This document shows, piece after piece, positions 3,295 to 40,677 of a stretch of DNA of 64,000 nucleotides. The DNA lies in the NCBI GenBank assembly GCA_947179485.1, contig OX359250.1:2997661-3061660 (forward strand), in the 5' to 3' direction. The position numbers were made by a program, and so were the translations under genes. Each line of letters begins with the position of its first letter. Position 1 is the first letter of the stretch. The notes beneath the pieces are model-generated. The model was given only the letters and a program-made list of their open reading frames with translations. It did not search any database and was not told the origin of the DNA. This stretch comes from Allacma fusca. Its lineage: Eukaryota; Arthropoda; Collembola; Symphypleona; Sminthuridae.

Positions 3295-3964
3295 TAGTGT
3301 TTCTTTCGGTGCAAGTATTGGGAATAACCGCACTTGCAATTACAATTGATAATGCAAGTACCAGTAATGCCGTTACTGGTACTTAATTCCTAAAATTCGG
3401 CAATTAAATCATGCAAATAACCGAGTTGAGCTTTCGTGAAGTTTTCTGATATACAGCATAAATCGTCGACGAAGAGGCAAAATGATCAGTGCATCTAGAT
3501 GCTATGCATAACGAAACAGAGATGCACAAATGACTTCTTTCTTTAAGACTTCCAAGGCTAAAAAATTGTAAAATTTCATCCTTCACCATATCTTTACAAT
3601 TTTTAAAATAAAATTTTGCCTATTTTTCTATAATTTTGTGCAAATCGCATAATTTTGCGCTCAAATTCGAAATGGTTGCAACGTTGCAAGTTGGAATTAA
3701 CTTGATAAATATTTTTTAAATTGCAACTTTTTGCAGTGCAAGCACTTGTAATGTTGTAATAATTGCAATTGCATTTCTTTCAATTTCAGTTGTTCTTAAC
3801 CGGTAAATGCAAGTATTTAATGCTTTTGTAATTGCAATTTAAGTACACAGAAATTGCACTTGCACCGACAATTGCAATTCCCTGGTGTAAAATAACCGCG
3901 ATTGAACCGAACATGCAAGTTCAATTAGTAATTGCGGTTAACTTGCAATTGACAAGAAACACTA
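3295..3964. mobile_element. non-autonomous TIR element A (CTTGCAATTG word array)
   Basis: The ends are TAGTGTTTCTT and its reverse complement. Flanks repeat TGCTGC, and the matching site in the right arm of the duplication (near 47435) lacks the insertion, so this is a 670-bp insertion. The interior is built from variants of CTTGCAATTGCAA. It also contains a short antisense stretch resembling a LINE reverse-transcriptase active site (a phenylalanine-valine-aspartate-aspartate motif near 3462-3480). The target duplication is imperfect, so the superfamily is less certain than for its relatives in this window. Confidence 0.65.
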
Positions 3965-4293
3965 GACTGCTGCATGCATTTAGTTAACAGCTCATTTTAA
4001 ACTTTAAAATATTGTACAGCAAAAATTGAAAAGTTTCGTTAAATTTTAGCTGGGTATTCAGAAATATGTATGTCCCGACAAATACTTCCACAATCTGCAC
4101 TCTTGAGTAGAAAACAAGACACACAAGTACTTTTTTTAAGTTATGAAATCTTTATACTGCCAAATGTTTAATGTTGTCTCACAAAGCTTTTGGTCCTCAA
4201 ATTGCAATGTCTAACTTGGTGTAATAAAAAACAAATGAATCTTCATGAAATTCGGTTCAAATTCGGTGTTTTCAAGTATTTTTATCATATGTG

Positions 4294-5227
4294 CAGAGCT
4301 ATGCAAAATACTTGGTCTAAGATTACAAAATACCAAATAAAATACCTGAAGTGAAATATAGAAAATACAAAATACAAAGTAAAATACCTCAGGGTACATT
4401 ACTAAAATACAAATAAAAATACAATACATGGTCGGTAGTTAAAAATACTCAAATACAAAATACTGTATTTTAAATACAATACTTTTCTTAAAATACCCAA
4501 ATAATGCTCACTATTTTCAGTTTCTGGGACTCAAACAGCTTTCAAATTCATCATTTAAAAAATTAGTTAGATACCTAATCACTTCAAGGACTGCATATAA
4601 GACTGGTGTAGTAACAAATGATTCAACGTTTGTTGAATTGGTCAGTCCGTTAATTATAATTACATTGACTAACGATAATCAGTTATTTTGATTGTTTATT
4701 CAGTGATGTAGATTATTATGATATTTTTTGTATCTGAGTTAGTATCTGAAAATTAAATTGAGTGCCTTGGACAGATCTTAAATATTGTTGTTAAACAGGC
4801 AAGGTGGACTATGTGATCGTGATGTACAAAAGCATGCGCGCGTAGAATATTTTGCCCTTTCAGTGACGTTATGTAATACTGAAAATGGAGAACCTGAAAA
4901 TGTTTGATGTATCCAGTAAAAAGGATTCATTCCGTCACATGTTATTGCATTGCTAAAATGGAATTCGCACAGATATTGAACATCATGTAAACTACAAACA
5001 ATGTCAAAGTTGTAATCATGCTGGTGAAAAGTATTTTGAGCCAAATATTTATTTGAAATACATTTTCCAGGCCCTTGAAAGTAAGCAAATACAAAATACT
5101 TTTGTACTTACAGGCTCTTAAAATACTAAGTACAAAATACTTGCCCACTGCTTGCTAACTTGAAAATACCAAATACAAAATACTTTGTGGCCTGAAAATA
5201 CGTATTTTAAAATACTGCATAGCTCTG
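4294..5227. mobile_element. hAT-like non-autonomous element J (AATACAAAATAC word array)
   Basis: A 934-bp element with terminal inverted repeats CAGAGCTATGCA at both ends and an exact 8-bp target duplication CATATGTG (4286-4293 and 5228-5235). Both terminal thirds are full of AAATAC/AAAATAC words. No transposase is visible. It sits in a stretch missing from the right arm of the inverted duplication. ORFs inside are by-products of the repeats. Confidence 0.88.
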
Positions 5228-7440
5228 CATATGTGTTAAAACAGCAACGTTAGAAATCGTTTTCCACAATTTTATCACCCGAGCTCTTGAGGCTACCCAA
5301 ATCCTGCACTCCAGTTTTACTGGCCATGCCCACAGCAGCCAAAGCTGGCTACAGTACAGCCCTTTGACCACACGAACAGAAACTCACCGTAGCCCATAAC
5401 CATCCCTCAGGGAGCTGCCTCCCTTGCAAGGCTAAAATTCATCATCCAAGATGACACTTGTACCTATGGGTCCTGAAAACCAAAATGGTCGATATAATTT
5501 AATGATACTCTATTACTTATTACTAGCCCATGCTGTAACATCACATAGTGGTGCTTGCCCCTTACAAATTATTAGCACCTTATGCTGATCAGGAATGATT
5601 TTTACCAAATCCACCCCTGTAAAAAAATTGGTTTGCTTTCTTCGGGAGGTACCGTCGGGAAAGACAGCACGACAACCGTATACGTCGTATATGGACTTTC
5701 AGTTTTGAATCGTCCCTAAAAATAACTTGCGCTTTGAAATGAATTTGCATATACTTGTCTACATAAACAATTATACATTTTCTATTGTAGAGCTTTCGAA
5801 TAGTGCATGCATCCTCCCTATGATTATACACGTAAAACTTACAATGGAGCTGTCCCAAATTCCCGACCCCGTTTATCATGTATGATATATTATTAAAAAT
5901 CTCCATTGTTAGTTAATAACTAAAATAGTACCAAAAGTGCAAAAAATGGTATGTACATATGTAAGTACATAAACATGTTTAGGGACACAAGTTTTAGTCT
6001 TGTTGGTGCATGTACTTCGTCCATTAACGACAGCACGTAGTGTTGAACACGGATGGTTTTTAACCTTACTTATACAACATTATTGTTTACGTTCACACGT
6101 TGTATTGACCTTCTTTGCGATTTCTGAGGATTTAATTTTGCTCCTAGTGTTGTTTAAGGATATGCAATTTTACTTCTTACCTGACATTGAAAAATTTATG
6201 CAAATAGGGTAGGATGACAGGATGACTGTATATTTTACTTAAAAATAAAATACTTTATGACAACCGTAAATGCAGTTAGAGCTTACACACTTTATGTAAA
6301 CAACAACTGCAGTAAACAAAACAATCTTACACTTGATTTTGTGAAACATTTTTCATGGCTCTATAGAGTGGAAATTCTAGTAATTTTGAAAATAAGAAAC
6401 CAAGTGGTAATGGTAAATGACTTACTAGTTCATTGATGAAGATTATTGATTCAGCTAAACGCTTGAAAAAATTAAAATAATTGGCTGATGACAAAAATGT
6501 GGAAAATTCAACGTTGTAATTTGCTAAGGGAAGTTAGTTTCCGATATTCTGTTTTTTGAATGTTTAAGTCCAATGTATTTCTATATGATTCAGGCTTTGG
6601 GATACAGCACAGTTTCTAGAAATTAGGGTTGCGTAACTTTCTGAACGTTGTAGGTTGTAGTACCTTTTGATTTTTTATTTCGGGAGTGTATTTACACAAA
6701 TCATTTTTGCAGTATCGAAACTCTTACAATAAAGCTAAAAATATTGGATCTATGCATTTTCATATAAAACAAGGAATATTTTCATGAAATATTTCAACCG
6801 ACAATTAAATCTGGCACATTTCAAAATCCGTCACCAACTACATAAGTACAAATTGTTGTTGCACCAAGAAGGGCAACAAACGAAGAATCTCTTAACAGTT
6901 TATATTTAAAATGATCACCTCTTCGCAAACTTTGTTCAATGTGAGACAATCCGTTCAGTTTTTAGCGGAGTTTATTGTATTTTTTATCGAAATTAAATTA
7001 ATTAATTTATCGATTAATACTACAAAATAAAGTTCGTCTCCCATAACAAAGCTCTTGTCCTGTAACAACTTTACTGCATTCCCAATTTTCGAAGTAAAAT
7101 GGGCTAAAATAAAGGACGTATGGTCACTATAAAATATGGGAGGTTTTTCACAAACTCTTCTCCAAAGTCTTTCAATCTATCACCCTTTGGCTGTTTGATA
7201 GTTTTACGGTAATATTGCTATACCTTATACAAGATTCTTTATATTCAATGAAAAAGACACCTAGAAAAATAATTATTAATAATATGTATAAATGTTCAAC
7301 TCGTACAGTTCGTTAAATTCCGAAAGAACTTTTTCGTTTCTAGAAAACTGGCCGAGACGATCGAATTCTTTCGTAGTACTTACTATTAGATTAATAATTA
7401 TCATTAGTACAGAATAATAGTATTTCGAATTTATACACAT

Positions 7441-9048
7441 CTACTCTGACAAATCTTTCCCGTCATCTGAGTCACCGTTTACAGGATTCGATTCTTCCGT
7501 CGGCTCCGCATCAACAGCATCGTCTTCATCTTCCTCCTCTAAGGAACACGCAGAGCAGCTGGAAATAAGATTAATTTTCATATGATCAAGTCAAAAGCCT
7601 TTGCTTACGTGGTAATTTTATATAACTATTTACAAATTCCATTTTTTAATTCGATATTTTATATCGTTATTTCATGCCCCTGCGACCAGCTTGAAACCCG
7701 CTAATATTACAGTTACTCAACTGCAACTGTTTCCGCGAGAACAATAATTCCAAAGCATTAATCCCGCCGACTGCCGACATGATCCCGCTTGAATACTAGT
7801 AAAAGTTCCTTTTAAATAATATGTATTTAGCCAATTGGCAAACATGTAACGAAAGTTCCTGAAGGCTGAAAGCATGTTTAGCAATATTGACTCTGAAATA
7901 AACTTGATACGACATTTTTGAATGGGGATTCCCTCGGACGAGATTGACGTGTCCGTGGTGGAGTTATCGCTCGCGGAGTAATATCACTAAAATATGTTTC
8001 TGAGGCATGGTTATCTCCAAACTCCACTGGATGTCTTTACATTGTCAGATTAGATTTTTACTCACCGACTTTCATTGATCCCATAGTTGATGCAAGTTTT
8101 CCCAACGCACTCACAGCAGCCATCATGAAACCAACGGAAATAAGAAGCTCCCATGGAGTGGCAGGAATTTTTACATTTATTCATTGGCATACATTGCGAC
8201 ATGAATGCAACTGTACAATTCACTGTCACAATCTCCTTACGGGGATCTACAATGATCTTGCCATCTGCCACAGCTGTACAAAAATCGGCAAAAATAGAAT
8301 CATCCTTTTATTTCAAATGACAGTATAAAGAATTAAGTATGCAATTTAAAATTGTATCCTGTATAGATTTATCGGGATGATCCGGTAGTTCATGACATCT
8401 AATTATTTTTCCTTGTTTCGCTCGGACAGAAACAAGAGGACAGTAAGATGAGATCGACAGTACTGAAGAACAACACTTACTGTAAACACTCGTAGACAGA
8501 CTCTCTGCTTTAGGCGGTTGGAACCATGATTGATCAATATCGATGGGGTATGTAAACGTTGACCATCTGCCTTGCAAATCTTTTTCTTCTGTCAAGATGT
8601 TGAACAGGTCCGGCATCTCTTCTTTGAGGTCTCCCACTTGACTATGCATCATCAACTGGTATGTGGCATTTGGCTTTGGACACAATTCTAGAAAAAACAA
8701 AAGGGTTGTAACTCAGTCTAAAAACGACCAGGTCTGGATCTCGAAGTGTTGTTCAAAATACAAATTAAACATGATGGATCATAAAGTTTTGCGCATTATA
8801 AAGAGGAAAGACTGACCGACACAAGAGCAGCATTCACTGTAGAGATAGCTGAGGCAGTCGAAGCATTCCTTACAACATGAACAATTTCTAAGTTCACATT
8901 TACAGGACTGTGTAAGGGTACATTTTGACACAATGCTGGCACACACGGCTTCGTTGCAGGAGCTGACTAAGTCAATGGTGTTGAAAAATATGACAACTGC
9001 AGTCAGAGCACTGCAGATCACCCCAACTTTCAGCGCCGTACCCCTCAT
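7441..9048 (-). CDS. tsg: twisted gastrulation-type BMP modulator, copy 1 (4 exons)
   Basis: This is a secreted extracellular BMP-binding modulator of the Tsg/TWSG1 family, which works with chordin/Sog to regulate BMP signalling (family knowledge). Exons on the minus strand are 9048-8817, 8687-8481, 8273-8066 and 7558-7441. All junctions are GT-AG and all phases fit, giving 254 residues against about 220-250 in the family. Residues 1-30 look like a signal peptide. A cysteine-rich N-terminal domain starts at CNEAVC (31) and contains NCSCCKECFDCLSYL. The conserved C-terminal domain contains FMSQCMPMNKCKNSC, SMGASYFRWFHDGCCECVG and CINYGI. The tail is acidic and ends in DLSE. An N-glycosylation-type NAT lies in exon 2. 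The protein is identical to copy 2 at 43770-45377, and the two genes diverge head to head. The ATG was chosen because it directly precedes the signal peptide; an upstream acceptor suggests a further 5' non-coding exon. Confidence 0.9.
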
Positions 9049-9582
9049 GTTGTAAACTCGGATGATGGGGAAACCTGAAGAACAAAACGTATTCAAAAAG
9101 TATCAATTATTGTCACTGACAGTGAGTCATTTGAATTATGGAAATTACATGATTACAGCCAGTAAGTGCGTGTTAAGAAATTAAATGTTCTGGCATCTTA
9201 GTGTCTAGAAAGCTCGCTGTAGTAGGTGAAGTTGACTAGCTATTCTTAGTTTCATGGAAATTGGTTTACTGGGTAAATTGCGTCTGCAGATCACGAATCT
9301 CGAGGAATTGTCTGATGCAAACGTATACTTTCGGAGATGTGAGGGGTCAAAGGTGACTTCCGCAATGTATTGTATTGCATGGATACCTGTGCACAGTATA
9401 AATACACTCAGCACGAAAGGTGTACTCTGTATAATACGCGCTTAGCATTAGCAGGTAAAAACAGGATATGGTTGCTCACAACCAAACGAGGGGCCGTTCA
9501 AGCATTCCGTCACTTCACTATTTACCTTCACTAATTACCCGCAGCTTCACCCTCACAGCCCTCAAAGCCCTCACTCTTGTCC

Positions 9583-10040: not shown

Positions 10041-11333
10041 ACTTTACCCGAGCGCAAAAAAAGAGTTGGGATCTTATGGGGGCTGAGAAGATGGGATAAT
10101 TGTTTTGAGTCACCCATGTGATCATGTATGAAACTATGGGATACGGGCACCATAAGATTTCTATAGATGGGCCCATAGAATAAAATGACGCTAAATCCCA
10201 AAAACATAATTATTTTTATTTCGTCTATTTGAAGTGAATCATTGCAAATGAGTAACAGTATTATGGCCACTAGGCTAACAGATACCACATCATCATTCGT
10301 GTTCCAAAATATTTGGAAGGCACATATAGTATGTAATATTTTCTAATTCCAGAGTACAAAATTTGATTGCTTTAATTTCACTTGTTTTCTTCAGCACTTT
10401 TTCTGGGCTGGAATTTCTGCGTTTCCTGAACATATATTTGCATCCATTTACCGAAGTTATTTTAAAGATATTTAGTAGTACAAAGTACAATTCGCACTCA
10501 CATTCATTACAAGCACATTTGCATTTTGCAGTCAAAAAATACAGAATATGGCCAATCATCTTGTTACGTAGATAAACCAGACTATTATTGCGCTTCGCAG
10601 TAACCACGTTTGAATAAAAATGGTGACCTATTATTCCACTTGGGCTTGTGGTAACTTCTACAATTTTCGAATTATTCTCCATTATAGAGTGGATAAATCC
10701 TTCATCACTTTCTGGTGCCTTTGAAAATGGACCTTTTGTTCCAATTATCGGAAGCCTGGGCCCGGAAAGCTTGATACAATCCCTCAAATAGTACTTCATC
10801 GACGCATTTTTAGTAGTTTCGCACACATTTGTAGCACAAAGCTTTCCAACGAATTTTTGAGCAACTTGATCAATTATACCGTTCGAACTATGAACATACG
10901 ATTTAAGGAGCCCATTAATATCTTCAAATAAAAAACATGAGGTCTTCCACAGTGGTCCCCATTTTTCCACGCAGTCGACAATATGAGATAGTTGGTGAAC
11001 ATTAAAACTGCAAAATTCTTTCCCGTAAAGTTCCTCAACCTGACAGACAAATGTTTTTAAATTTGATCTGCATACTGATAAATCGTCAGGGCACACCTCC
11101 AGAGTAAGTAACTTGTGTATAGAGTTGCAGAGAATAGTAAAATGTTGTAAGTAGCGGCTATCTAATATTTCATCCAAAACTACTGGAATTGCGAACATCC
11201 AAATTTTTAGTTCTGAGGCTTTCCAGTACTTTATTTCTTTAACACTTCTGGGTAAGCGTGCTAATTCTGCAGAAACTTTTATGATAGGAAATCGTTTATC
11301 GATTTCATCTTTCCGATTGCCAATGTAGTATAC

Positions 11334-13100
11334 CAGAGCTGCTTGCAGGTATCAGGTAGTACCTGAAAAATACCCGTCGGGTCGGGTTCGGGTCAAGTTC
11401 GGGTCAGCTATAAAAAAAAGTACCTGAGATTCGGGTCAAGTGAGGGTACATCCAGGATCCGCACCTGATATTACAGGTCGGGTTACGATCAAGTTCGGGT
11501 TTAAAAAATATACCTGAGCTCAATGTCAGGTACAAGTTCGGTACGACGAATTTAAAATACCTGAACCCGAACTTGCAATTTCAGGTATTGAGCAAGTATT
11601 TTTTTACCGCAATAATTTAACTTTAAGTTCACGTGAATGAAACTCAAAAGCAGAAATGAACGTTAATGTAGCTTCACATGGCTGAAGAACACGTGGTAGT
11701 TAGTGATGCATGAGAGCTGCCATACCAATTAAATTAACAAGCAGCCAAACTTAGTGCATCGCATGGGTTCAAAACAGTCGAACCTGTACCTGGACCCAAA
11801 CTTTGGGTACCTCAAAAGTGTGAACCTGTCCCTGAAAATGTACCGATTTTACAGGTTCAAATTTTTCGATCCTGAACCTGACCCAATTGCGTTTTTGTAG
11901 TACCCGCACCTGATTAGTACCTGAACCCGAAAAAGTACCCAAAAGACGACCTGAACCTGGGTATTTTTGGACCGGACCTGAGCATGTTTTGGGTACTTGA
12001 GAATCAGAACTTTTTTACTATTTTATCTTGTGTTAAAAGTACAATTGGGTGTTTGCAGTGCAGAATATATTTAAAATGAAAAAGAATGCCTGTTCACTGG
12101 TTCCTGGGACACCCTGCCATTGCTTTTTCGATGGAAATCATCTTGCAAGCTTGAAATTCTCCGGCTTTTAACTTTCAATCAGTAAATCCAAACATTTCAG
12201 GTCTTTTGCGATCAGGTTCAGGTCTTTCATTTGTTACACCTGGTCCTGACAGGTAAAAGCAAAACGGGTTTTTCTGTGTACCTGAACCTGAACCAGAAGC
12301 TTTACCCAATTTCACTGGTATAAAATACTGCACCCAGAAAGGACCCAAAATTATTGGGTCCAAAATACATGCACCCATACTGAACCTGAACCTGGACCTG
12401 AACCCAAATACCTGGGTGCGACCTGAACCCAAATACCTGGGTGCGACCTGAACCCATGCGATGCACTAAGCCAAACTTTGCTAATTGATTTCATGATATA
12501 GCCTTGTAGCACATTGCCTTTAGCAACATTGTAGTACACATCAACAAATTGGAATCAATTTGGTGTATACTTGTGCCTTCAGGCTTGGTTACTATTTTTA
12601 AAATTAATTAATTTAAGGCTTGGTTACAATTAAAAAAGCTAGATGATCTCCGATCTCGTGCTGAAGCTATTGCTCAGAAAATGCTTTGGGTAGGTTAAAT
12701 TGGCTGTTTTCAGTCTTTTTGTGATGCTTGTCACTTAACATTATTACAGATTTACGTATTTGGGATTTAGCGTCAGTGAGTAAGTGGTATTTACTTTGAT
12801 AAAGTAATAAGATAGAACTTGTGATTATCAGTTTGCTCTGACAAAATACTTGAAAGTCGGGTTCGGGTTCAGGTTCGGGTTCAAGTTCGGGTCGGGTTTG
12901 TTGTGAGATCCGCACCTCAGGTATTTTTTCAGGTGCGGGTAACCATGAAGTACCTGATCCAAAAATACCTGACAGGTGCGGATGTTAACTCGGATCCGGA
13001 GGGCCAAGTTCGGGTCGACGAAAAAAATTAACCTGATATTTCAGGTGCGGGTCGGGTTCAGGTGCGGATCTTGATTTTTTGCTACCTGAAAGCAGCTCTG
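11334..13100. mobile_element. hAT-like non-autonomous element B (ACCTGA/CGGGTTC word array), nested
   Basis: Terminal inverted repeats CAGAGCTGCTTKCAGGTA and an exact 8-bp target duplication TAGTATAC (11326-11333 and 13101-13108) define a 1767-bp element inserted in the transposase exon. The subterminal parts are dense with TACCTGAA, CGGGTTCGGGT and ACCTGAACC words. The middle (11752-12468) is itself another insertion (element C). No coding capacity is visible; short glycine/proline-rich ORFs here follow from the repeats. Confidence 0.93.
11752..12468. mobile_element. TIR element C nested inside element B (9-bp target duplication)
   Basis: Perfect inverted ends TAGTGCATCGCATGGGTT and a flanking direct repeat AGCCAAACT (11743-11751 and 12469-12477) define a 717-bp element. 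The flanking repeat is best read as 9 bp rather than the 8 bp of its neighbours, although the shared string AGCCAAACTT makes 9-10 bp possible. Its ends carry ACCTGAACC-type words like those of its host element B. A 5'-truncated relative lies at 21160-21536. Confidence 0.85.
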
Positions 13101-15548
13101 TAGTATACCATTGATGTAGATGTTAGCCATAGAACCGTAAATGTACGTACTATTCCTAGTAATACGCAGTGCATATAGTCCACACAAAAGCCATCGACAA
13201 TGTCAAATCCTTTCAACAACAAAATTGGCGATGCTGTAAGTATCCCTTTGGAGAATTTCGACTGTTGAACTTGAAGTTTATAATTTTCGTGATTCCGCTT
13301 CATAGGTGATTTATGCAAGTATACCCTTGTGTGACCATTCCCCTTCCGAACTACAGTGCCCTCGTCCTCACACCAAGTACATCCGAATCTTCCATTATAC
13401 TGGGTGTGCCCCTGAAGAACGCATCTTGCTACGGCATCCACAGAAATGCACGAAACAAATACTTTTGAATAAATGTACTCATTTGCTAAATTTTTCCATT
13501 TCACAGGTATTTCCTGCAAGGAGTTGAGTTGCTTGATGACTGGCGGAAATACAAGAAAAGGGTCTATTTTCTTTTTACCACTCCAAATAGCTGCGCAAAT
13601 AAAATATCGCTTCTTCAGGTACAAAGGTAATTCATTACAAGTCATCAAAATAGGCCACAGAGATTTACCGGAAGAACGAAATAGAGGTACTCCATCAGTA
13701 TTCATTGTAAACGTTAAATCCATGTTATTATTGTGCGAGCTGGACGAGGTTGTAGTGGTGCTCCTTGAATAAAATTTGTCCAACGCGTCCATTATATCTT
13801 TAGACTGAAGAGCAATTTCAAGTTGTTTTCGGATATCAAGAACAGCAAACATTTGGTTGTTTCGCATGTCAAAATTTGACGGTAGAGATAATTTGCAGTT
13901 ATTGCAAATTGTGTTTTCTACATGACTGTTGCATGTTCCGCAAAAGTAGTGTTTATTAACAAACACAGTGGTACGAGCTAGGTGTCGATTGAACCTATAT
14001 TCAGTAGTTGGATAATATGCTGAGCCCGGAATGTGAAGTTTGAGTAGTTGTAGAAGACCTTCCAGTGCATTTTTCTTTAAATTGAATTTTGAGACAAAAG
14101 CGGACACCAAGCTTAGGCTCTCAGTTAGCGTCAGAGAACAGCCCTCATACAACTGGAAAATATATTTAATTATTAAATTTAATTATTGGGAATATATGCA
14201 TCGTCAACATATGACATAGCCCCTATCTAGAAAATGCAAGTGAGTAACTCCCACAATAAACATTCAAGGCTCGTAATTTGTGGCAAATTTAATTCTAAAA
14301 AACATTTCTTTCTCTTGGGTCAATGAATAATCCAGGTCACGTGAATAAAAGTGGAATTCGTCCCGGGGATCTTGCTATGTAATTTTCCATGATTACGTAA
14401 ACTTTGTTTAAATCAAATTTCTTCGTAAACAGCTTTTGTTAGATTTTTTTTTTGGAAATTCATAATAAATTTTTTTAACTTCTACATTGTTTAAATAGAA
14501 CCACATTCTTCGAGTGTATTACAAAACAAAATCAGGAATATGTGAAATTCTAATAGTCATCTCCTCAAAATTCAAAACGTCACTGCATACTCGAGATTTC
14601 CGACTTGGATTAGTCTGACACATGTTAAGTCACAATATAGCCAATCTGCTAATATAGTCACTCTATAGCCTTCAAAGAAATATCTTAAAAACTGCTTTCG
14701 AGAAACAAGTTGGATCACTCGAAGATTGCCCGAAGAAACCTTGCTTCAGGTTTTCGGCTCTTGTTTCCAGAAATCCTAATGACCTTATACTAAGCTCAGG
14801 AAAATAACATTATCAAAAATCCAACATCAAAATTGTTTTCAGAAATAAATTTGATTGTTAAAAATATCATCACAAAAAAACGAAAAATGCTTCACGTTGA
14901 TGACCCCCGTGGCCTTAAAAATTTAATCATTTGACAAAATTGTTTTTTTAAATTCTAGATGTGTCTGCTACAAAATATTTTAATAGAATATTTCATGAGT
15001 TACTCCCTTAAATTCCTAGTTAAGGTTGATCTTATATTTTTACCCCGTATATGTCTTGCCAAATGTTCAGATTATGGAAAATATTTACCTTTGATTCCAA
15101 ATTACTATTATCTAAAATGGGGTCTGATGACGGCTGATCAAATTGGAGTTCACGACTTTCATCCATAATTTCGCTTGAGTCAGACAAATTTTCGTGATTA
15201 TCCTCATCACTAATACTTGAAACGTCCCAGGACTCGTCTGAATTATCATTCATTATTTCATTAAGAATTTAATAAGGCAATAGTTAATTTGCAACGGGTA
15301 AATATTAGTTATATAATTACCTGGGGTTAGAACAGCTCCATCTCCGCCGAACAAGTTGTTGACATTGCCGAATAATAATGCTGGAGTCTGTTTTGAACTA
15401 TTCTGAAACCGAATCAGGTATAAATTCTGGGCTGTAATTGTTGTTGCTAAAATTTTCATACTACATTATATATTTTGTACGTTCTATTTACCCTATTTTT
15501 CCGACTCCACAATGTCTGTCTAGGAAGTTTTCTGCATTCTTTTGGCAT

Positions 15549-15866: not shown

Positions 15867-17462
15867 ATGGAAGCAAAAGTGAAATCTGGGTACAGTTGTA
15901 TATTTTTTACAGCCGATCAGACTTACTCCTATGTGAAAACAAGTAAAGTTGAATTTGGAAGGTACAATTATCCTACTCCTGAGTTAGCTATAAATAAGAT
16001 ACTTCCTGTTGTTTGGGATGACACTGGAGAGGAGCTTATGGCAAAGCTTCTGGCAACTGGTGAGTGTAAATGGGTTGTATTTATAAATTTGCGTGTTATC
16101 CTTTAGTACGAGTTTCAAATTCTGTTTTGTTTGATCTCACAGGGTCAAAATCTAAAATGTCAAAAATGGCTGCAAATTTAGCAGAGGAAGCCAGAGATCA
16201 ATCGTTTAGTGAGAAGGACCTGGGAAAACACAAACGTGGGAGAGTTCCTAAAACAATTTCGAATGATTTTGAAGTAATTTAATTGCTTGAGTTGATATAT
16301 CCTCTTCATTTTCTTATTTTTATTTAACTGATCGTAAAAGATTACAATGTTTTTATCAGTGTTTTGAATGTGAAACAGACAACGAGCCCCAGCAAGCGGA
16401 AAATGCAACCCAGGGAAGGTCCATCAACTAAAAAGAAGGTATTTGGATTCATTTACTATGAATTATGTATTTAATTAATAATTAAATTAAGTTTTGACAA
16501 ATTGCATCTCCAAGATCAGCAAATAAAAATTGTATATCTTCCCATTTTAGTTAAGGAGGGAAGCCCACGAAGTTATTCTTGCTTTGGAGCCCTCGCCAGT
16601 TTTAATAGATGAAGCTAACCATAGCAGCAGCGAAGTGACTACAAACGAGCTGCAAGATGAGGTTTCGTTTGATTTAAGTACCAGTTGAATTATAATATGA
16701 ATGATAAATGCTGTATTATCTTTTGTTTACATTTTTTAAAGGTAATCCAATTGCCTCAATATTCCACTGAGGAAATTTCTAGCCTGTTGGCTGATAAGGA
16801 CAAGGAGATCAATAAATTGCGCCAGGAGCTTCAAATTCAGAAGTCGCGCATGTATAAGTTAAAAAGTAAGTGAGGCTTATAACAATCGTTAAATGCACTA
16901 GATAAATAATATTTGTGTCAATAATTGTAACCATAAATTTATACTAAATATATAAATGCTCGACAGAATCAACCTCCGTTAGCAGCAATATTCGAGCTGA
17001 GATGGTTGAACTAGGAGATGGATTAACCGCCTCTAAAGATGTTGTGGATAACATACGAGATCGCTTTCACAATAGTCCCAACCAGTTTATACGAGCAATC
17101 ATGGAACAGACCGGAATTTTTCCGCTTGAGGATATAGCTCGTTGTTCCGTTTATGGTCATAAGACTTCCACCAGCACCACTCAAGCTCGACCTGCTCTGG
17201 GACCGAAGTTCTTTGCACTCAAAAGTAATATGCATTTTTTGCACAAAATTTCAGCAGACATTCAGAATAAATTGCTGCGACCTTTATTTGTAATACGTGT
17301 GTATATAATTTCGGAAATTATTTTTCATGTTTTTCAGAATTCGTGATTTCAGAATGTTCACTAACCATTGGATCTCTTGGGTTTCATAAATTCGAAGCGA
17401 GCTGCCGTAGCATTTGTACAGACGCCCGTAAACGTCTCAAGAACAAAAATACTGAACAATGA
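15867..17462 (+). CDS. BEN-domain protein encoded by the Tnp2-type transposon (7 exons)
   Basis: Seven exons join in phase with GT-AG introns: 15867-16059, 16143-16273, 16379-16438, 16551-16661, 16742-16865, 16967-17224 and 17338-17462. The product is 333 residues. The N-terminal part (FFTADQTYSYVKTS...) is unassigned. A basic, NLS-like stretch follows (SPSKRK, STKKK). Exon 5 encodes a likely coiled coil (LLADKDKEINKLRQELQIQ). The last two exons match a BEN domain in order: a helix around NSPNQFIRAIMEQTGIF, then EDIARCSV, RPALGPK and a final helix around KFEASCRSICTDARKRL. BEN domains are DNA- and chromatin-binding modules, so a role in binding or silencing control of the element is plausible but inferred. 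It diverges from the transposase gene. AATAAA follows at 17514. All exons are open, so the gene may be intact. Confidence 0.8.
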
Positions 17463-18888: not shown

Positions 18889-19070
18889 AAAATAAGAGCA
18901 TATTGTTAAAAAAGAGCAAAAAATATAAAAACATATGCTTAAATAAGTACAAAAAGTAAAAAAGCATGTTGTTAAAAAAGAGCAAAAAATATAAAAACAT
19001 CTGCGTGAATAAGTACAAAAAATAAAAAAGCATATTGTAAAAAAGCACAAAAAATAAAAAAGCATCCTCT
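18889..19070. repeat. tandem repeat, unit about 70 bp, inside element K
   Basis: Two full units and a partial one of an A-rich sequence, each containing AAAAAAGAGCAAAAAATATAA and AAGTACAAAAA blocks. The short hydrophobic ORFs on the minus strand are translations of this repeat. Confidence 0.7.
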
Positions 19071-19189
19071 CTACAAAATTCAAAGAGTGGACAGTCTTCG
19101 TCTTTGTCTTGGTGTAATGCGGATTTGAAATTTTACGCGCGCTAAATGAATTATTAAAATTATTTTTTAAAAAAATTGAATAAATTATT

Positions 19190-23055: not shown

Positions 23056-23148
23056 GCTTATGTTATTGTCAATGTAATACATTTCTTTTTTCTCAGTTCT
23101 TAAATCAATTGGTGCATTCAAGTAAACATGACCTAAGGTCATGACCGA

Positions 23149-27210: not shown

Positions 27211-27650
27211 ACTAATATAAATGAAGTTGAAGTGTATCTGAACTCGACGCCGCTCTCCAGCAAGTTAGTCAAGGACATTTTTGATTGGAGCTCCCTTAAA
27301 AGCAAGTCCAGTACACAACTTGACTGAGATCAAGACTAGCCATTATCTTGGTGGCAGTTTGTGCAACAACTAAACCAGCACATCTGCAACTACTGATTAT
27401 AAGAATATTTGCAGTATTCACACCGCTAGTGCAAATGGAATGATGAACGTCCAAACTTAAAAGTGGATGACTTGGTGGTCATTCAGGATTAACGATTCCA
27501 AAGCCGTGGAAGATGGCTAGAGTACAGCAAGTTCGTCCCGGAAATGAGGTCCTATCTACAGTGAGGACGGTTGAGAGTTGGTTCGCCCATTCGTTAAGCT
27601 GTGCTGCTTGTCAGTTGAACCAGCTTGAGGCAGTAGTAAAACTGCTGAAG
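27211..27650 (+). pseudogene. BEL/Pao integrase tail and DUF5641 relic
   Basis: Interleaved frames resemble the end of a BEL/Pao polyprotein: VYLNSTPLSSK, then a stretch equivalent to 'xWNDERPNLKVDDLVVIQ', then IPKPWKMARVQQVRPGNE and VRTVESW. In the family this is the DUF5641 tail with the pattern 'PxxWxxaRVxxxhPGxDgxvRvVxVrT'. Several frameshifts and stops are present. Confidence 0.75.
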
Positions 27651-28994: not shown

Positions 28995-30810
28995 AGCTGG
29001 GTTTATAGTTTCACTTTCCCTTCATTTTCCTTTACTTTTCATGCAATTTTCCTTTTTCGTGCATTTATACTTTGCGTTTGCTCCGAGTGATCCCTCACAA
29101 ATAATTTGATGCTCACGTGTTTTTCCTTTCATGCGCGAAGCAATTTATACTTTCAGTTCGGGCGCGAAAGTTTCCTTTTTTTCTTCCTTTTCTTACAAGT
29201 TGAACCAGTTCAACTTTATGGCAAAGGAAAAAATAAGGAACTAGTGAATACACAGTTATAAGTACTTATGTATAAAACAAATTAAATACTGTAGTTCAGT
29301 GCTAAATATACCTGTTTGTATCCTGTAGCCAGGGTTGCACAGTTGAAAATGCCATGGCATTTTCGGCATTATAGGGCATTTTGGGCATCTATGGCACTTT
29401 GGGCATTTTGGGCATATTCAGCCTAGGGCAGGCATTTGCGGCATATTCACTCCAATTTTTTAAATATATGACTTCAGCTACCTGCTAATTTTGCAAAATA
29501 ACACAAAACAGTATGTTGCAATTAATTTTAATATTCAACTAGATTACATGATAAAATTGTAGAAACATACTGTTTCCTAGTAAACACTGGTTTACTACGG
29601 CTGATTAAATGCAGTTTTCAAAGTCGACACAAAATTTGCTTCGGAAGCTCCAAGTTTTAACATATATTATAACATAATATATGTATAAAATAAGTCGCAT
29701 TGTATGTATCTATTGAAAGTGTAAAATTTTCTATACTGTACAAGCCATTATCAAAATACGGAATTTATGCTGGCGCACTGTGCAAATTGCTCCAAAAATT
29801 GTGCAAACTCCAAAAGATTTTTTATTGTACAGCGTTGAAGGTTTGCAACTCCGTTGGGGCTTATTGAAATAGCCACTAGGGAATTGAACGAATTAGATTC
29901 TTTGTTTTAAAATCAAGTGTAACATTTTCTAAAACTCGATGGGGTTGATTATACTATGAAAAACTCCCTTATATTCGCTAAAGGAGCAATACTGGTCATA
30001 GTGTATAAGTTTCTGTAAAAATGTCCAATATGCCCGCCGGAAATGCCCAAAATGCCGGGCATTTTCAGAGTAAGACATTTTCAGGACATTTTCGGCGTTT
30101 TGGGCATTTTCAGGGCATTTTCAGGAGGGCAGGCATAAAACCGAGGGCATTTTCATTTGTGCAACACTGCCTGTAGCTAAATACATATAAAAATATAAAT
30201 TTTTAGGCATAATTGCTGTGTCTAATTATTATATACATCAAATTAATTATCCCGGAATTTTTCATACCTTAATGTAATGACCAAACGGTCAGGAGGAGTT
30301 ATTAATCGAGTATGAGTAATTTAATGGAATAATTTGTTCTCACTCTTTTTTAAGATGTAATTATTAGTCAAAGTGTTACTTGTTAATTCTGCAATATACT
30401 TTAATTATTTTTACATGTATTTTTACATCATACTGTGTACTTGCCTAAATATTTATGATGATACTCGGAATTCTCAAGACCTCAATCGTTTGTTAAAATC
30501 GATTCATCAATATTTTGTATGAGAAATATTAGCGCATAAACCGTAATCCACTATTTATTAATTTATAAAAGTAATGTGCGAGAACCTTTTAAAAAAACCG
30601 TGATCAAAATTTATGTTGACTAGAATACAACAGATAATCAGTTTATACTTTCATTCATTTATTAACGCGGGAACGAAAAGGCAAACGAAAAGCAAAAATT
30701 ACTTCTTGATCAGATGGAAGTATAAATACATCGAAGGAATCTAATTTCCCCCCCCCCCCCGCAGCAGAAGTAAGGGAAAGGCACGCAAAAGTGAAACTAT
30801 AAACCCGGCT
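28995..30810. mobile_element. TIR element O (TAA target duplication), inserted in the LINE
   Basis: Inverted ends AGCYGGGTTTATAGTTTCAC are flanked by TAA on both sides (28992-28994 and 30811-30813). Ignoring the insertion, the LINE frame is open across the site (LPF followed by NTPNH), which confirms the borders. A 3-bp TWA duplication is typical of PIF/Harbinger, but no transposase is present, so the superfamily is inferred. The interior has TTTTCCTTT/ACTTTC words near both ends and a run of about 13 cytosines near 30750. Element E is nested within it. Confidence 0.82.
29330..30169. mobile_element. hAT-like non-autonomous element E (GGCATTTT word array), nested in O
   Basis: An 840-bp element with ends CAGGGTTGCACA / CAGTGTTGCACA (inverted) leading into TGAAAATGCC, and an exact 8-bp target duplication CCTGTAGC (29322-29329 and 30170-30177). 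Both termini are filled with GGCATTTTGGGCATTTTCGG words. There is no coding capacity. Confidence 0.95.
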
Positions 30811-31882: not shown

Positions 31883-32834
31883 TAAGCATGAGATCGGTTC
31901 GGTTTAACGCGGTTATCCGACCATCGGTTAACCGAAACCGAAGGTTCGGATCGAAGATTCGTAACCGAATTGAAATAACCGAACGGTTCGGATACGTCAA
32001 TGCCTAACCGGATATCGGTTTCGGATCGGTTCGGTTTTAGGTATGAATTTATCCGTTCGGTTCGGATGAAGTGAATGTGTCCGCTCGGTTAAACCGACGG
32101 ATAACTGATTTTGAATTTTTTTCTAAAATGTTTACCAAATCGTAATCGAGAATGACTGTAGCATGAATTTCTCGAGACAGACGATTGTTTCATTATGTAT
32201 CTGCAATATATTTAGAAAGCACATTGCATGGAGCACGGCCAGTCATACATTTGTTCATTACATCGCAATTATTTCTCACACCACTATTTAATTTTTAGCT
32301 TAAATTAAATAAGTGCCTTAATTACTACCACTAATATGTCATCAATGGAAACCTCCGACTCCATAATAAAAGCAGAAACAACAGGGGAAAATGAGCCTTC
32401 AAAAAACGATGAGAAGCGAGTTTTAGGAACATTTTGGTCTTACTGGAGGTTTAGTCCTTAGATTTTTAGTTGTCATTTGAAATCAAATAATAGGTAGAAT
32501 TTGATAAAAATTAGTGTAATACATAATTGCTTTAAGTTTAAACAACATTTTTATTAAAACAAAGATTTTTAAAAAAATTATTAAATATATCTGTTTCGAA
32601 TGAAGTTTTTATTGGTAAAATGTGCAACATTGTGTTTCGGTTATTCGGATAAGCGACAAACGGTTCGGTCCTAAAAATCATCCGAACCGATGTTTGGCGG
32701 TTCGGTTTCGGATACGAGTATTTTTTTATCCGAACAAAACGGTTCGGTTCGGATTTGAATAAAAAATTAACCGAAAACTTCGGTTCGGTTCGGTTACTGT
32801 TCGATTTGTTTTATCCGAACTGATCTCATGCTTA
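31883..32834. mobile_element. hAT-like non-autonomous element G (CGGTTCGGAT word array)
   Basis: A 952-bp element with inverted ends TAAGCATGAGATCRGTTCGG and an exact 8-bp target duplication GCCTCTTC (31875-31882 and 32835-32842). Both subterminal regions are dense in GGTTCGGTT, CCGAACCG and CGGATA words. The central 550 bp is ordinary AT-rich sequence. Arginine- and proline-rich ORFs are by-products of the repeats. Confidence 0.95.
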
Positions 32835-33954: not shown

Positions 33955-35615
33955 TCGTGATGGGTAACGTTATTTAATAACGTTAATGAATAACGTTATT
34001 ATCGATAAAATCCTAGTAACGGTTAATGAGAAATAACGTTCAACATATTCCACTTGATTAACAAAAACTTAACGTAAACCGAAACCTCTTGACAGCAAAT
34101 AACATAAACCGAATCACAATAACGTTATTATCCGTTATTGAAAATCCTAGTCAATTTTATTTTTAATTTTTGTAAATTATAAATAAATTATTATTGTCGA
34201 CGTCCCATGTCAACATAATAATGCACATTCATGAATCTAACTGCAGTTTTTATCAAGTTGCTTGCATTGTGCAGGCAGTACATTTCATGTATTTTCTCGA
34301 AAGGTATAAGTTAAGGATAATGTTATCGGTTATTCTAATTAGGCCTTCAACCTTAGCTCAGTTGTAACTTGATGTGGTTTTTACAGCTAAGGTTACATAT
34401 AATATTGTAAATACTTATATTCGTGACGCAAATGTAAATTATCGTTTTTAGAAGTTCCAGAATTAAGGTCAACCTTTTATTTTACGCGGTTCTCTTTGTG
34501 TCCTGATATTTTTCTCTTTGTATGAAGGAAACCTTAAAAACAGTCTCTCACAGAACCTTGAATTGAACGCATCTAGTAAATAAATTAAGATTTTTAATTT
34601 CCTTTTGACCTAACGACAGTGTAAGCACAAACTAATTGTTTTTCTCATAGTCATTTTATTACTCATCCAGTCCTCTAATTCTCCGAGCCATCAATTATTA
34701 TTATTTTAATTTGCTGCCATCTCTTACGATTAGATGTAAGTTTCACAAATACAAAAATCGTTTCATTAAATCGTATAATATTTATACTGATTTGTTTTAG
34801 AAATTTGCGTTTATTTCGTCATGTGCATAGTAGCCAAACGTGCTAAAAAATACAATATTTAGCTAATTATACGCATCAAAATATATTTCGGTGACCTGAG
34901 TTTTTTGTAAAGTTGCTGCACTACGTGCATGTACACTGCCGACGGATGCGAAGCACCTTTTAGGATATCGCAACTGTTCAATGGAAGTCATTATAACATT
35001 AGCGAAAAAGATAAATTATCTAAGTGTATTTTTGTTATGACACACGAACATCCAATTGCAAAAAATAGAAACTGTTCCATATTTCGAAGTTAGATTTCAT
35101 TTTACTTTTTTAAAATTAATTAGCGATTAATCTGACATGAAATCTCCAGTTACAAATTGCAAACCACAATTACTTCATTTTGATTTTGGAACAAGTTGCC
35201 ATTTTACGTTTTATCGGAAATGGGTGCAGACGCAGACTATTTTTGCTGGTTACCTACAATTTATTTTTTCTGAAGCTATATGCATGAAGTCAAATTATTG
35301 TTTGCTGGAAGCAAACGTTACAAAGACTTCGGGAATAAAAGCAATACTAGTGCTAATAATTATATCTATTAATCATGATTAATGAAGCTTTAGATTACAG
35401 TGAAAAAATTCAAAATAATTATTTTCATGAACCGTAATCATTATTGTTAATATTAACAGTTATTAACCGATTAACGCTATTGAATCCAGCTTCTAACCGT
35501 TTATAACCATAACTGAATTCCAAAAAAAACCTATAACAAAAACGAAAACCGAATTCAAACCATCATTAACTTTTGAGCAGTTAACGTAAACCCAAATTTT
35601 CGGTTACCCATCACT
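33955..35615. mobile_element. damaged TIR element H (AATAACGTTA word array)
   Basis: The left end reads CGTGATGGGTAACG; the right end, inverted, reads CAGTGATGGGTAACC. The left end carries ATAACGTTATTAACG words, and the right end carries TTAACCG/AACCGTTAT words. No matching target duplication was found, so one end may be rearranged. The interior (34150-35380) shows no gene. Confidence 0.7.
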
Positions 35616-35930
35616 GAGTTTCTAGTATACTATATATAGTCATAATTAAGCTCTGAAGATGAACTGTTTGAGTTCGAAAACTTGGCGAATAAATTGATTC
35701 TAAGTAATATCCACGTATTCCAATTATTTCAACATAATTGATATTATGTGTATATCAATGCTCTAGCATGTTATGTTTTTTCACTATTCTAAATTAACTA
35801 GTCGTAGTTAATTTGGCAGGCGAAATGTTGAGTTTAGGAAGAATAATTATGTTTATCTGTAGCATATACAATATGAGGTTGTGTAATTATGTGATCTTGC
35901 GAGTGCTCAGCTCATCTCGTATGTATGCAG
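35616..35930. other. unassigned sequence
   Basis: No gene or repeat structure was recognised between elements H and I. Confidence 0.4.
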
Positions 35931-36856
35931 AGATGTGGAAAATAAATGAAATTTACTATTGAAATACAAAATACAAGTACATTTTTAGAAAAGTTAAAAT
36001 ACAAATACAAAATCCAAATACCAGGTGTAACTTAGTTAAGATACAAAATAAAATACAAATATCCGGAGTCATTTGGGCAAGATACAAAATAAAATACTTT
36101 GCTTCCAACGAAAAGAGAAAATATGAAATTAAAATACCGTATTTGAAAAACAAAATACATATTGAAAATACTCCCAAATTTATCTCAAAGTATATGTCTG
36201 AGATGTATCTAAAGTTTATTTTCTCAAAGTATTTTGTATAATTCAGCCAAATAATACGATGTTTATAAATGAATCAGCTAACGTAAGGTAACTGCATGTT
36301 ATTAAACTTGTGTTGAGTTGTGCATTTGTGTGTAGTGTGTATCAAAGTAAATTAACATGGACCTATACGTACACAATATTTTTCCTTTAAACAAATAATC
36401 TTATAACTCCTGGGTAATGTATTTATATTCGCGTCACTAATTTAGCTAACTTTACAGTTCTCAGATCCATTGAATGTTATGTATTTATCCAGTAAGTAAG
36501 TTCTTCAAATCCGTCAAATAAGTTTCAAAAACTGGTTTCAAAATGTTTTAAATTAGTGATTTTACCTTTAAAGTATTTATTTGGACATGTTTTAGAGACG
36601 ACCTTAACAACTGCCAGAGTCATGTATTTTAAAACTACATTTTGTATTTAAAATACGGGGTGGGTAAATTTTACAAAATAAATAAATACAAAATACTATC
36701 ACGTTCGTAATCTTCAAAATACGAAATACAAAATATGGTAGACATGTTGGTGCTGACAAAATACGAAATACAAAATACCTTAAACATTTTACGGTTAGAA
36801 AAATATCAAATACAAAATACTAAATGTATTTCAAATACATATTCAAAATATTTTCG
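35931..36856. mobile_element. damaged element I (AAATACAAAATAC word array)
   Basis: Starts near CAGAGATGTGGAAAAT, with dense AAATACAAAATAC words at both ends and a word-free centre. This is the same layout and the same word as element J (4294-5227), although the terminal heads differ. The right terminus could not be identified and may have been lost. Element M inserted just beyond it. Confidence 0.65.
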
Positions 36857-36864
36857 TTCCGACC

Positions 36865-38003
36865 CAAAGATGGGCAAAGTATTCGCATACCTTAAAGCCT
36901 ACATATTTTTAGGTTCTTACGTGCAACCTACATTTTAGCCTACATAAATCCCACCCGAGAGTTGACCCTACCTACAACCTACATTCATCCCTCCCGAGAG
37001 TTGACCCTACCTACAACCTACATACATTACTCCCGAGAATTGTCCCTACCTACAACCAACATACCTCTTTGTTGTAATTGATTCATACCTGCATAACTAA
37101 TATGAAATTATGCAATCTTTCATTGTAATTGTTGAAAACGAATTGAAATCGTTTTTACTCCAGCACGTAAACAAAAGTAACATAACATATGTATGTATAT
37201 ATGTGAACCAAAGTGTAGATGGGGCTTTTATTCAGCGCTTTGGAATACGAAAGGTTCAAACGAACAAACATACATTTTGAAGCTTAAGTACCTACCTTTT
37301 CATGAGCGAAGCGATATACGGGGCTGGTTCGATCCGTTGGTGTCGCGTGTTTTCCACTCGAGCCCATCGCCCAAGGACAACGCAGAGACATGGTAAATAC
37401 AGGTTTGGAAAGCCCATGGCGTAAATAAGCGCAGACAAATACCAGTTTTTCAAATTTTGAAATTTTGAAAAAAAAGTCAAAATTTTGAAAATAATGAAAA
37501 CACTCTATATGTACTAATGGGGTCACAATGGTTCAGGAATCTCCTGTCGCACTGTTTTCGAAATTTCCAAATTTGGTAAAAATTTCCACCAAAGTGTCAC
37601 TGGGTTAGGTCTATCCTTTGGAGTCGCGTGATTCCAACGCGAGCCCCCCGGCTAGGGACAACGCAGAGACATGGTAAATATAGGTTTGGAGAGCCCAAGA
37701 AGTAAATAAGCGCAGACAAATACCAGTTTTTCAAATTTCGAAATTTTGAAAATAATGCGAAAATTCTATATGCACTCTTGTTTATACTCGCTTCGCTCTC
37801 CATGTGACCGCCCCGCGGTTACAAAATTCAGATTTTTTTATGTAGGTACGTACTGATTATTCCCAGCATACATAAATTGCATATATTTTTCCCTCGAAAT
37901 ATACAGCCTACATACAAATGCCTAGAAAATATGTGAAAATTTGAGCATAGCGTAAAATTTTGCCTACTTGTAGGCATACATGTAGGGTATGCGCCCACCT
38001 TTG
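36865..38003. mobile_element. hAT-like non-autonomous element M (CCTACATAC word array)
   Basis: A 1139-bp element with inverted ends CAAAGATGGGC / CAAAGGTGGGC leading to GCATACC, and an exact 8-bp target duplication TTCCGACC (36857-36864 and 38004-38011). The termini carry CTACATAC/CTACAACC and TGTAGGCATAC words. The core contains a diverged direct duplication of about 190 bp (near 37315-37510 and 37610-37775), including CGCAGAGACATGGTAAATA. Confidence 0.92.
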
Positions 38004-38114: not shown

Positions 38115-39842
38115 CAGTGCTCGGACTGGGTACAGAAACCGTGTACCCGTACCCATACCCGTACCCGAATATCGGGTACTACAAAATGCTGTACCTATAC
38201 CCGTACCCATACCCGAGTACCCGGGTAAATTATTTCAGTACCCGTACCCGTACCTGAAAATACAATGTAGTACCTGTACCCACAATTTACCCGTACCCGT
38301 AATGTACCCAAAACCTGTACCAGTACCCGAGTATCTATTGTGTGTACCCGGGTATTACTCGGGTACTGGAAGTTAAGCCGATTTAAAATCCCCGACGACA
38401 TTAGCCTGCCCAGCTAAAAAGTTTTAATTTGTCAATTTTTTGACCTCCATTAAAAGTGTCAGGGATTTTGGGAATTTTCCCTAGGTGTTAAAGACATCCT
38501 ATTTGAATTTTTTGAAAAAATTATTTAAGGCATTCTGATTTTTTTAATAAACACTGACGAAATTCAAATCCTACTGCCCCAAAATAATAACCTGCTGAAT
38601 GAAATGAAACGTTCTCGCTAATTGGAATTGGGACGGATTCTTTAATACTAAGCTCTCCATAACTTGCTTTTCAACTTGGAGAACAAGAAACAATTTTTTT
38701 TCGGCTAATTGTTTACGGCTAATTGAACACTGTGTATAGAAAATGTTATACGGAAAAATTGAGTTGATCATAAGTTTTCCATGTCAAATATTGCGGTTTT
38801 AGGAAATAAATGTGGTAGGCAATATTGAATATTCATTTTATATTACAGCTTTATAAAACAAACATTCGTAAACTGTCTCTCACATTTATGAGGCCCGAGA
38901 CGGAGATTTTCGAAAAATGCAAGCAAAATAGGACTAAAATGCAACCCCATGGAAGTTTTGAACGCCAAGTTCAGATGACTCAAGTTCTTTTAACATCAAA
39001 ATTATCAAGATTAATCAAAAGGACAGAAATATAAATATTGCGTGCAAGGAATAATATTTTTCATTCTAAAATGTTATAAATATTCACCTCCATAAATACT
39101 CAAAGTGTCATAAATACCCAGAATTGAAAATGCTCAAATTGCCTGCATAAAATGCCTTGGCATTTTCAAATGGGCAACCCTGGGTACTTGTAACGTTAAG
39201 AAATGGATCTGCTAATAAATGTATATTTATTGCGATCTTATCTCGTAATACGTCTTTAAATAATTGTAATGTTACGCTCCCAATGAAGCTAATTAAATTG
39301 AATCCCAAGAACCTCCCCCTTGAAATTCTTCGTTGATGAGCTTCACTACTTAAGTCGTTAAATAGATGATTTCACTGACTCTACGCTCTATTTCTTTATT
39401 AGATTCCTTGGATGAATTATTAGAAGCGTTAGATTGCAACTACCACGTAATCATAGATGAGACGAAGCCACTTGGCTCTGTCACTAACACAAGTATCTGT
39501 ATACTACGAAATAAGCAACTCCACGGTTGGTAGGTCTTATTGTTAACCATAGTAATCCATCTCATCAGGAATCCTTGAAGTACCCAAAAATACTCGGGTA
39601 CAGCACCCACGGGTACAGGTATTTTACATAGTGATACCCGTACCCATTGGGTACTACCCGATTGCCACTGAGGGAGTACCCATACCCGTACCCGTACCTG
39701 TACCCACTTTATTGCCTAAAATCAAGAGTACCCGGGTAGTACCCGCGTACTTGCGAGTACGCAATTTCTGTACCCGGGTAGTACCCATACCTGTACCCGT
39801 ACCCATTTACCCGAGTATTACCCGTACCCAGTCCGAGCACTG
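38115..39842. mobile_element. hAT-like non-autonomous element F (GTACCC word array)
   Basis: A 1728-bp element with perfect inverted ends CAGTGCTCGGACTGGGTAC and an exact 8-bp target duplication ATTGACAG (38107-38114 and 39843-39850). About 280 bp at each end is GTACCCGTACCC-type sequence. The 1.1-kb interior is unrelated AT-rich DNA. Valine-proline ORFs are by-products of the repeats. An E-related fragment lies inside (39120-39182). Confidence 0.95.
39120..39182. mobile_element. fragment related to element E
   Basis: Read on the minus strand it starts CAGGGTTGCCCATTTGAAAA followed by GGCATTTT words, close to the terminal repeat of element E. No second end was found, so it is a solo terminus or decayed copy inside element F. 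Confidence 0.6.
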
Positions 39843-40117
39843 ATTGACAGCTGCCAATACGGACTTACAATTAGCCGATTTTGCAATTAAGCCATGCGGT
39901 CACCTGCCCGATATTTCACCATGACGAAAGTTTCCACAAAAATCTGTAGCTATATCGCCAATTTTAGCAAAATTACTTGCAAGTACCAATAATGTGGAAG
40001 AAGAACAAACAACATCGTAAAAGTACATACACAGTTGATACCAAATATTGTTATGTATTCACAAGTGAAAACCAATGTGAATGAATGTGATGTTTGTATT
40101 GACCAACTAATTAAAAC

Positions 40118-40677
40118 CAGAGATGCGCAAAAGAAATAGCCTTCCTTCAAGCCTTCGAAGGCGAAAATTCAGTAAAAATTTCCCCTTCAACATATCTTAG
40201 AATAAAGCCCTCTAAAAAATCTGCCTTCCTTCACCCTTCCTTCCAAAATATTTATACTCGTTTTTGCCTTCAGCCTTCTTTTTAAAAATAGCCTTCCTTC
40301 AATTTTAAACTACAACCCGCTTAAAAACCTTTTGCACCAGCAGGATTCAGTGCAGGGAAGAGAGCAGGCACACATTGTCAGTTGTGAGTTCACGAATTGA
40401 CTGCATTGTTGCGCGAGCAGCAAAACGTCGTTTCATATGCTATGCTTACACGTTATAGATATGTCGTGTACCTGGAAGCCTTCACGGCCTTAGAGGGCTA
40501 ATATTTAGGAAGCCTTCCTTCACAATCCTTCATTGCTAGTTTTTGTGAAGGCTTCCTTCAGCCTTCAGAAAAATGTATCCCCATCCTTCCATTCCTTCTG
40601 CAACGTTAAGAAAGTTACCTTTCCGCCTTCAAGTAAGCCTTCTTGGAAGGCTAGCCTTCGAAGGCTGCGCATCTCTG
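40118..40677. mobile_element. hAT-like non-autonomous element L (GCCTTCCTTC word array)
   Basis: A 560-bp element with inverted ends CAGAGATGCGCA and an exact 8-bp target duplication ATTAAAAC (40110-40117 and 40678-40685). Both ends are made of GCCTTCCTTCAAGCCTTC-type words; the centre is unique sequence. Confidence 0.95.

Follow-up and report, generated by a model that had tools for sequence, protein, structure and literature searches.

What are the insertions that share one layout but carry different repeated words inside their ends? The question is raised by a 64,000-nucleotide window (the whole stretch of DNA that was analysed; all positions refer to it) of the collembolan Allacma fusca, of which the part from 3 to 41 kilobases (kb) is largely mobile DNA. 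It contains nine elements (e1 to e9) and one element nested within e2, with YARNG-type inverted ends, target duplications of 8 base pairs (bp), and arrays of a short word at both ends; for two of them the window also holds the empty site. These are very probably small DNA transposons of the hAT superfamily, from about ten families and probably non-autonomous, in each of which the word would be the subterminal repeat bound by a partner's transposase. Heads of the YARNG type, duplications of 8 bp, and a subterminal word peculiar to each family make up the design published for hAT elements (PMC3143072, PMC10368747, and PMC8097297). The elements look like ordinary hAT members from families not previously listed.

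Detection of the elements

Elements were detected by end geometry alone, that is, by inverted ends and flanking repeats. The strict scan called for a 10-base inverted end with at most one mismatch and an exact 8-bp repeat. It returned seven pairs; 30 random second-order Markov windows averaged 0.13. The hAT inverted-end consensus starts with YARNG; six of the seven pairs had YARNG heads, and no YARNG pair occurred across the 30 Markov windows. A looser scan was needed to recover e3 and e5; it also listed five pairs with a one-mismatch duplication and 9 of 14 end matches, which is about the chance level (5.3 in random windows). The elements are:

e1, 4294 to 5227: ends CAGAGCTATGCA, word AAATAC, duplication CATATGTG
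e2, 11334 to 13100: ends CAGAGCTGCTT, words ACCCGA/ACCTGA, duplication TAGTATAC; inserted in a frame of tnp2/DUF4218 type, and host to the nested element
Nested element within e2, 11752 to 12468: ends TAGTGCATCGCATGGGTTCA, words GGTTCA/ACCTGA, 9-bp flanking repeat AGCCAAACT
e3, 18478 to 20685: ends TAGGGATGTGC, word CGATAT (weak), duplication with 7 of 8 bases
e4, 21792 to 22187: ends TAGTGATGCCAATGGTCTGGTC, words GGTCTGG/GGTCCGG, duplication GTTTGACC
e5, 29330 to 30169: ends CAGKGTTGCACA, word AAATGCC/GGCATTT, duplication CCTGTAGC
e6, 31883 to 32834: ends TAAGCATGAGATC, word GGTTCGG, duplication GCCTCTTC
e7, 36865 to 38003: ends CAAAGRTGGGC, word CCTACA inside a 39-bp tandem unit, duplication TTCCGACC
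e8, 38115 to 39842: ends CAGTGCTCGGACTGGGTAC, word GGGTAC/CGGGTA, duplication ATTGACAG
e9, 40118 to 40677: ends CAGAGATGCGCA, word GCCTTC, duplication ATTAAAAC

The geometry-only scans thus recovered the nine elements that a first-pass annotation had described as hAT-like, with both ends and an 8-bp duplication that is exact in eight of them; in e3 it reads ATTGAATC/ATTGAAAC, with 7 of 8 bases identical. The words listed in that annotation do not include the nested element's. The loose head pattern proposed in that annotation was found as well, as YARNG on both ends of eight of the nine elements and of the nested element. Over all ten, the head has A at position 2 in every element, G at position 5 in nine, and T at position 7 in nine. 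Position 8 of the left duplication was C in seven of the nine elements and G in two although the window is AT-rich; this was noticed post hoc.

Empty sites

Both e2 and e4 inserted cleanly, with a single target copy at the empty site. The flanks of e4 match a related repeat across the junction, where the element is absent and one GTTTGACC is present:

17824 to 18027, minus strand: related repeat without e4, the empty site with a single GTTTGACC; 179 of 202 aligned bases identical

With e2 taken out, its flanks form a joint frame of 704 codons that keeps a single TAGTATAC. In the joined frame, which is tnp2-like, DUF4218 was matched below the cut-off in one half, and the other half matched no Pfam family. 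Among 34 related proteins, several were from ticks and sea cucumbers, and three carried PF02992. No empty site is known within the window for the other elements. That of e1 is unreadable because an inverted duplicate of this region (described below) lacks a longer stretch there.

10293 to 14182, minus strand: tnp2/DUF4218-like transposase frame split by e2; ticks, sea cucumbers, and a soft coral have related proteins

Word arrays at the ends

We compared the commonest 6-mer in the two end stretches of each element (250 bp each; 198 bp in e4) with the maximum of 200 dinucleotide shuffles; for the nested element an older cut (11756-12474) was used. The top 6-mer exceeded all 200 shuffles in eight of the nine elements (count versus shuffle maximum: e1, 26 versus 15; e2, 16 versus 6; e4, 16 versus 6; e5, 13 versus 12; e6, 21 versus 13; e7, 12 versus 7; e8, 29 versus 13; e9, 16 versus 13). 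The top word is absent from the interior of e1, e3, e5, e6, e7, e8, and e9. The interior count in e2 stems from the nested element, and the two end stretches of e4 leave no interior. The words are partly organised in tandem arrays, with units of 25 bp in the nested element, 39 bp in e7, and 9 and 11 bp in e5.

It had been claimed that a word is multiplied inward at both ends of every element and that the terminal repeat always runs straight into it. The first statement holds for the eight elements above, with e3 as the exception. The second is a little strong, as the first word begins at base 34 in the left end of e7 and at base 22 in the left end of e9. A palindrome near the tip does not emerge as a rule: 4 of 20 ends had one at P≤0.05, against 5 of 200 controls, which is suggestive only.

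Sharing and change of the words

Further sequences related to the ten elements enter the comparison of words:

35929 to 36850, plus strand: element with only one end, whose head is CAGAGATGTGGAAAATA and whose words are AAATAC; word arrays 72-79% similar to those of e1
21159 to 21536, plus strand: partial second copy of the nested-element family, 83.5% identity over 400 columns, with shorter word arrays
33958 to 35613: candidate element whose inverted ends are TGATGGGTAAC and whose words resemble TAACGTTA; an 8-bp duplication was not found
3295 to 3964: further candidate, at the start of the annotated span; an insertion with TAGTGTTTCTT ends that the inverted duplicate lacks, with no clean 8-bp duplication
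3517 to 3594, plus strand: e9-like end within the 3295 insertion, head and eroded words kept
39094 to 39182, minus strand: e5-like end within e8, head and eroded words kept

Inverted arrays of GGTCAATATTGACC-like words also lie at 26591-27217, without a clear duplication; they may be the remains of one more element built in this way.

The words differ in part between families. We scored a 6-mer as shared when each element of a pair had four or more copies of it. At least one repeated 6-mer was shared in 19 of the 45 pairs, often one or two A-rich words. Sharing was clear between the nested element and e2 (seven repeated 6-mers), the nested element and e8 (six), e2 and e8 (three), e2 and e6 (three: CCGAAC and two A-rich words), and e1 and e2 (three, AAATAC among them), with shuffle-null means of at most 0.06 for these pairs; the remaining pairs have nothing or only A-rich words in common. 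By eye, the words of e2 (GGTTCGGGT), the nested element (GGTTCAGGT), e6 (GGTTCGG), e8 (GGTACGGGT), and e4 (GGTCCGG/GGTCTGG) are variations on GGTNCGG. AAATAC also stands behind the second head, CAGAGATGTGGAAAATA, at 35929; the array similarity to e1 reported above could come from the words alone.

Part of the variation follows a mutational bias, which we measured as the share of CpG transitions among single-base variants of each word. An even expectation is too low for CpG variants, and we replaced it with the background share, which was 22.5% for 60 random CpG 6-mers outside the elements and 13-24% for five of the actual words. CpG transitions made up 17 of 21 variants for e2 (TCGGGT), 23 of 27 for the nested element (TCGGGT), 14 of 17 for e4 (GGTCCGG), and 8 of 10 for e8 (TACCCGTAC), and 5 of 6 in the 21-kb copy of the nested family. 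Most word variants in these four elements are thus CpG transitions, and ACCTGA accordingly looks like a CpG-decay form of ACCCGA. The ratio of observed to expected CpG was low in the interiors of e2 (0.56) and the nested element (0.44); at 0.88 against 0.80 outside elements, the e8 interior is not CpG-poor. Founder variants and later decay cannot be told apart in e8 because it is a single copy.

Array length changes within a family too. The nested element differs from its partial copy at 21.2-21.5 kb by two inner insertions that adjoin or hold words, and its right end, by eye, has more word units. Whether word copy number varies between copies of one family was a check suggested in the first-pass annotation, and for this pair it does. 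Arrays probably grow and shrink as units that hold the word are duplicated or lost, and CpG-containing words would afterwards drift by CpG transition.

The annotation had gone further, with words private to each family and replaced wholesale through fast co-evolution of transposase and arrays. Different words on one architecture are what we found; privacy and wholesale replacement are not supported, given the repeated 6-mers common to several elements, an ACCTGA that looks like a decay product of ACCCGA, and AAATAC behind two heads. We regard it as unlikely that the DNA-binding domain and the arrays co-evolved quickly in place within one hAT lineage, leaving sister families with unrelated words. 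That one head pattern spans the ends of all ten elements, yet with different words, is what such replacement would give. However, the words overlap between several elements, some of their differences are CpG decay, the changes are undated here, and many unrelated hAT lineages, old or acquired separately by horizontal transfer, would give the same picture.

Comparison with known hAT elements

For ordinary hAT families, we propose that each lineage has a DNA-binding domain of its own, which would make the words differ in their letters and leave the layout as it is. The word would be bound by the BED zinc finger of the unseen partner's transposase and the head would be the cleavage site; many word copies may be kept because a multimeric transposase docks cooperatively on the arrays.

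The statement that hAT transposases use repeated subterminal motifs is borne out by published work on Herves, Hermes, Ac/Ds, and Kat1, which at the same time answers the remark that no named class has this property. According to the abstract of the 2011 Herves paper, different hAT transposases bind regions of different sequence, and this ensures specificity (PMC3143072). Herves, from Anopheles gambiae, resembles our elements in repeating an element-specific subterminal motif at both ends, with single-base variants; it differs in the motif itself (CG/AATTCAT), in three 100-bp tandem repeats at its left end, and in that binding has been demonstrated (PMC3143072). In Hermes, from Musca domestica, BED domains bind the subterminal repeats (PMC10368747). 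It shares with our elements the 8-bp duplication, short inverted ends, and a repeated motif near both tips, whereas its motif is AAG(T/C), the element is autonomous, and binding has been demonstrated (PMC10368747). The maize Ac/Ds elements have short inverted ends, an 8-bp duplication, and multiple subterminal hexamers, and many Ds forms are non-autonomous; Ac, however, binds AAACGG repeats (PMC3260210). In no element here does AAACGG rank in the top six words. Kat1 of Kluyveromyces lactis, a domesticated hAT, likewise has a repeated subterminal hexamer, but its motif is TGAATT/AATTCA and it serves mating-type switching (PMC4763223).

Yellan and colleagues report that hAT-type BED and Hermes DNA-binding domains (the CGGBP/hAT-19 type) have mostly unique motifs, usually CGG or CGC and sometimes AT-rich, and that, for four hAT proteins, matches to the binding motif lie in the subterminal regions of the protein's own element (PMC8097297). 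Here CGG, or what a CpG transition makes of it, is found in the words of e2, e4, and e6; the word of e8 holds CGGG, and that of e1 is AT-rich. This mixture fits the range of motifs reported there.

Several observations weigh against assigning these elements to hAT families with CpG-decaying words. The head of e6 is TAAGC, and the word of e3 fails to beat its shuffles (7 versus 8). No hAT domain was found in the six frames of e3, e7, or e8 or in four of the six frames of the candidate element at 33958-35613, the scan having covered these four; the word-reading proteins are therefore ones that we infer. CpG transitions were absent among the variants of e6 (0 of 10, GGTTCGG), of e3 (0 of 12, ACGATA), and of the 33958-35613 element (0 of 9), and with the longer word of e2, GGTTCGGGT, they numbered just 3 of 14. 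A sub-cutoff Emr1 match in e8 was judged to be chance.

It is quite improbable that the arrays have no function and are simply tandem repeats expanded by slippage close to the ends. Slippage would account for the tandem units of 9, 11, 25, and 39 bp and for the different array lengths of the two nested-family copies. It does not account for a top word that occurs at both ends and is missing from the interior of seven elements, or for words in both orientations, and in studied hAT elements repeats in this place are binding sites (PMC3260210, PMC10368747, PMC3143072).

Since 8-bp duplications are not unique to hAT but are also made by the P, Merlin, and Kyakuja-Dileera-Zisupton types, and no transposase is present to decide, one of these superfamilies could be proposed, but this is highly improbable given YARNG heads in eight of the nine elements and given that the sole other cut-and-paste transposase seen, the tnp2-like one, belongs to another element, into which e2 has inserted.

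Within 37 kb there are about ten hAT end designs, a single layout in different letters. This window alone contributes families, not a class; what it adds is the difference in array length within a family, the CpG-transition bias in four elements, and the same-direction words in seven of the ten, described next, which do not stand out from strand composition. With autonomous partners, such families would make a code between BED zinc fingers and DNA words readable from sequence.

Orientation of the words

The heads are inverted, yet the words tend to run in one direction along the element at both ends. We expressed this as the ratio of same-strand to opposite-strand 6-mer matches in 200-bp ends with the heads skipped. 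The ratio was at least 1.3 in seven of the ten elements (e1, e2, e5, e6, e8, e9, and the nested element) and at most 0.77 in none, against 33% and 32%, respectively, of 3000 control stretches (binomial P 0.019); the 1.3 threshold is post hoc, and e6 (1.31) and e2 (1.33) barely pass it. With 150-bp ends seven again pass, e7 replacing e6, and e3 drops to 0.70; 250-bp ends give the same seven as 200-bp ends. Hand-picked words show opposite majorities at the two ends in seven of the ten, the exceptions being e3, e4, and e7. Dinucleotide-shuffled ends retain most of the polarity skew, so no orientation beyond strand composition emerges from these counts.

In Hermes, left-end repeats 2 to 7 are antisense and right-end repeats 1 to 5 are sense, where we take "sense" as the direction read from each tip, and the first two left repeats form a quasi-palindrome (PMC10368747). 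Its repeats thus lie on one element strand, as in the seven elements here, with the qualification just given for ours. In Kat1, too, repeat polarity differs between the ends (PMC4763223).

Taken together, the same-strand polarity and the CpG-transition excess in e2, the nested element, e4, and e8 could be read as germline methylation of the arrays, sensed strand-wise by the transposase; we hold this to be very doubtful. If it were true, one daughter copy would jump more readily after replication, as in maize Ac/Ds, here in an animal; Ac/Ds shows methylation-dependent transposition that favours one hemimethylated daughter (reviewed in PMC3878927). The polarity pattern and the CpG bias can be tested cheaply in any genome rich in hAT families.

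Other features of the window

Viral contigs contained at least 120 stretches with the GTACCC-type pattern, which were set aside unchecked; three other patterns scanned against viral contigs gave no matches.

The window is animal DNA and includes a twisted-gastrulation gene (Tsg_N), an F-box gene in which FIST_C matched below the cut-off, and a C2H2-finger gene that looks spalt-like. Other features are:

6456 to 9582 and 43236 to 46353: inverted duplication with the twisted-gastrulation gene, 99.6% identity over 3.1 kb
1128 to 2671: retrotransposon in fragments, in which RNase H, zinc-binding, and integrase domains are recognisable
16948 to 17346, plus strand: open frame without a Pfam family that looks like a BEN domain
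22756 to 23397: two adjoining tandem arrays, one of approximately 32-bp CTACTGCACC units and one of TATG/TGTC units

Within the inverted duplication, identity is 100% over 18 successive 150-column blocks (6737-9436), and it is 84-92% in the adjoining 5404-6287; gene conversion along a tract, or else the assembly itself, might account for this.

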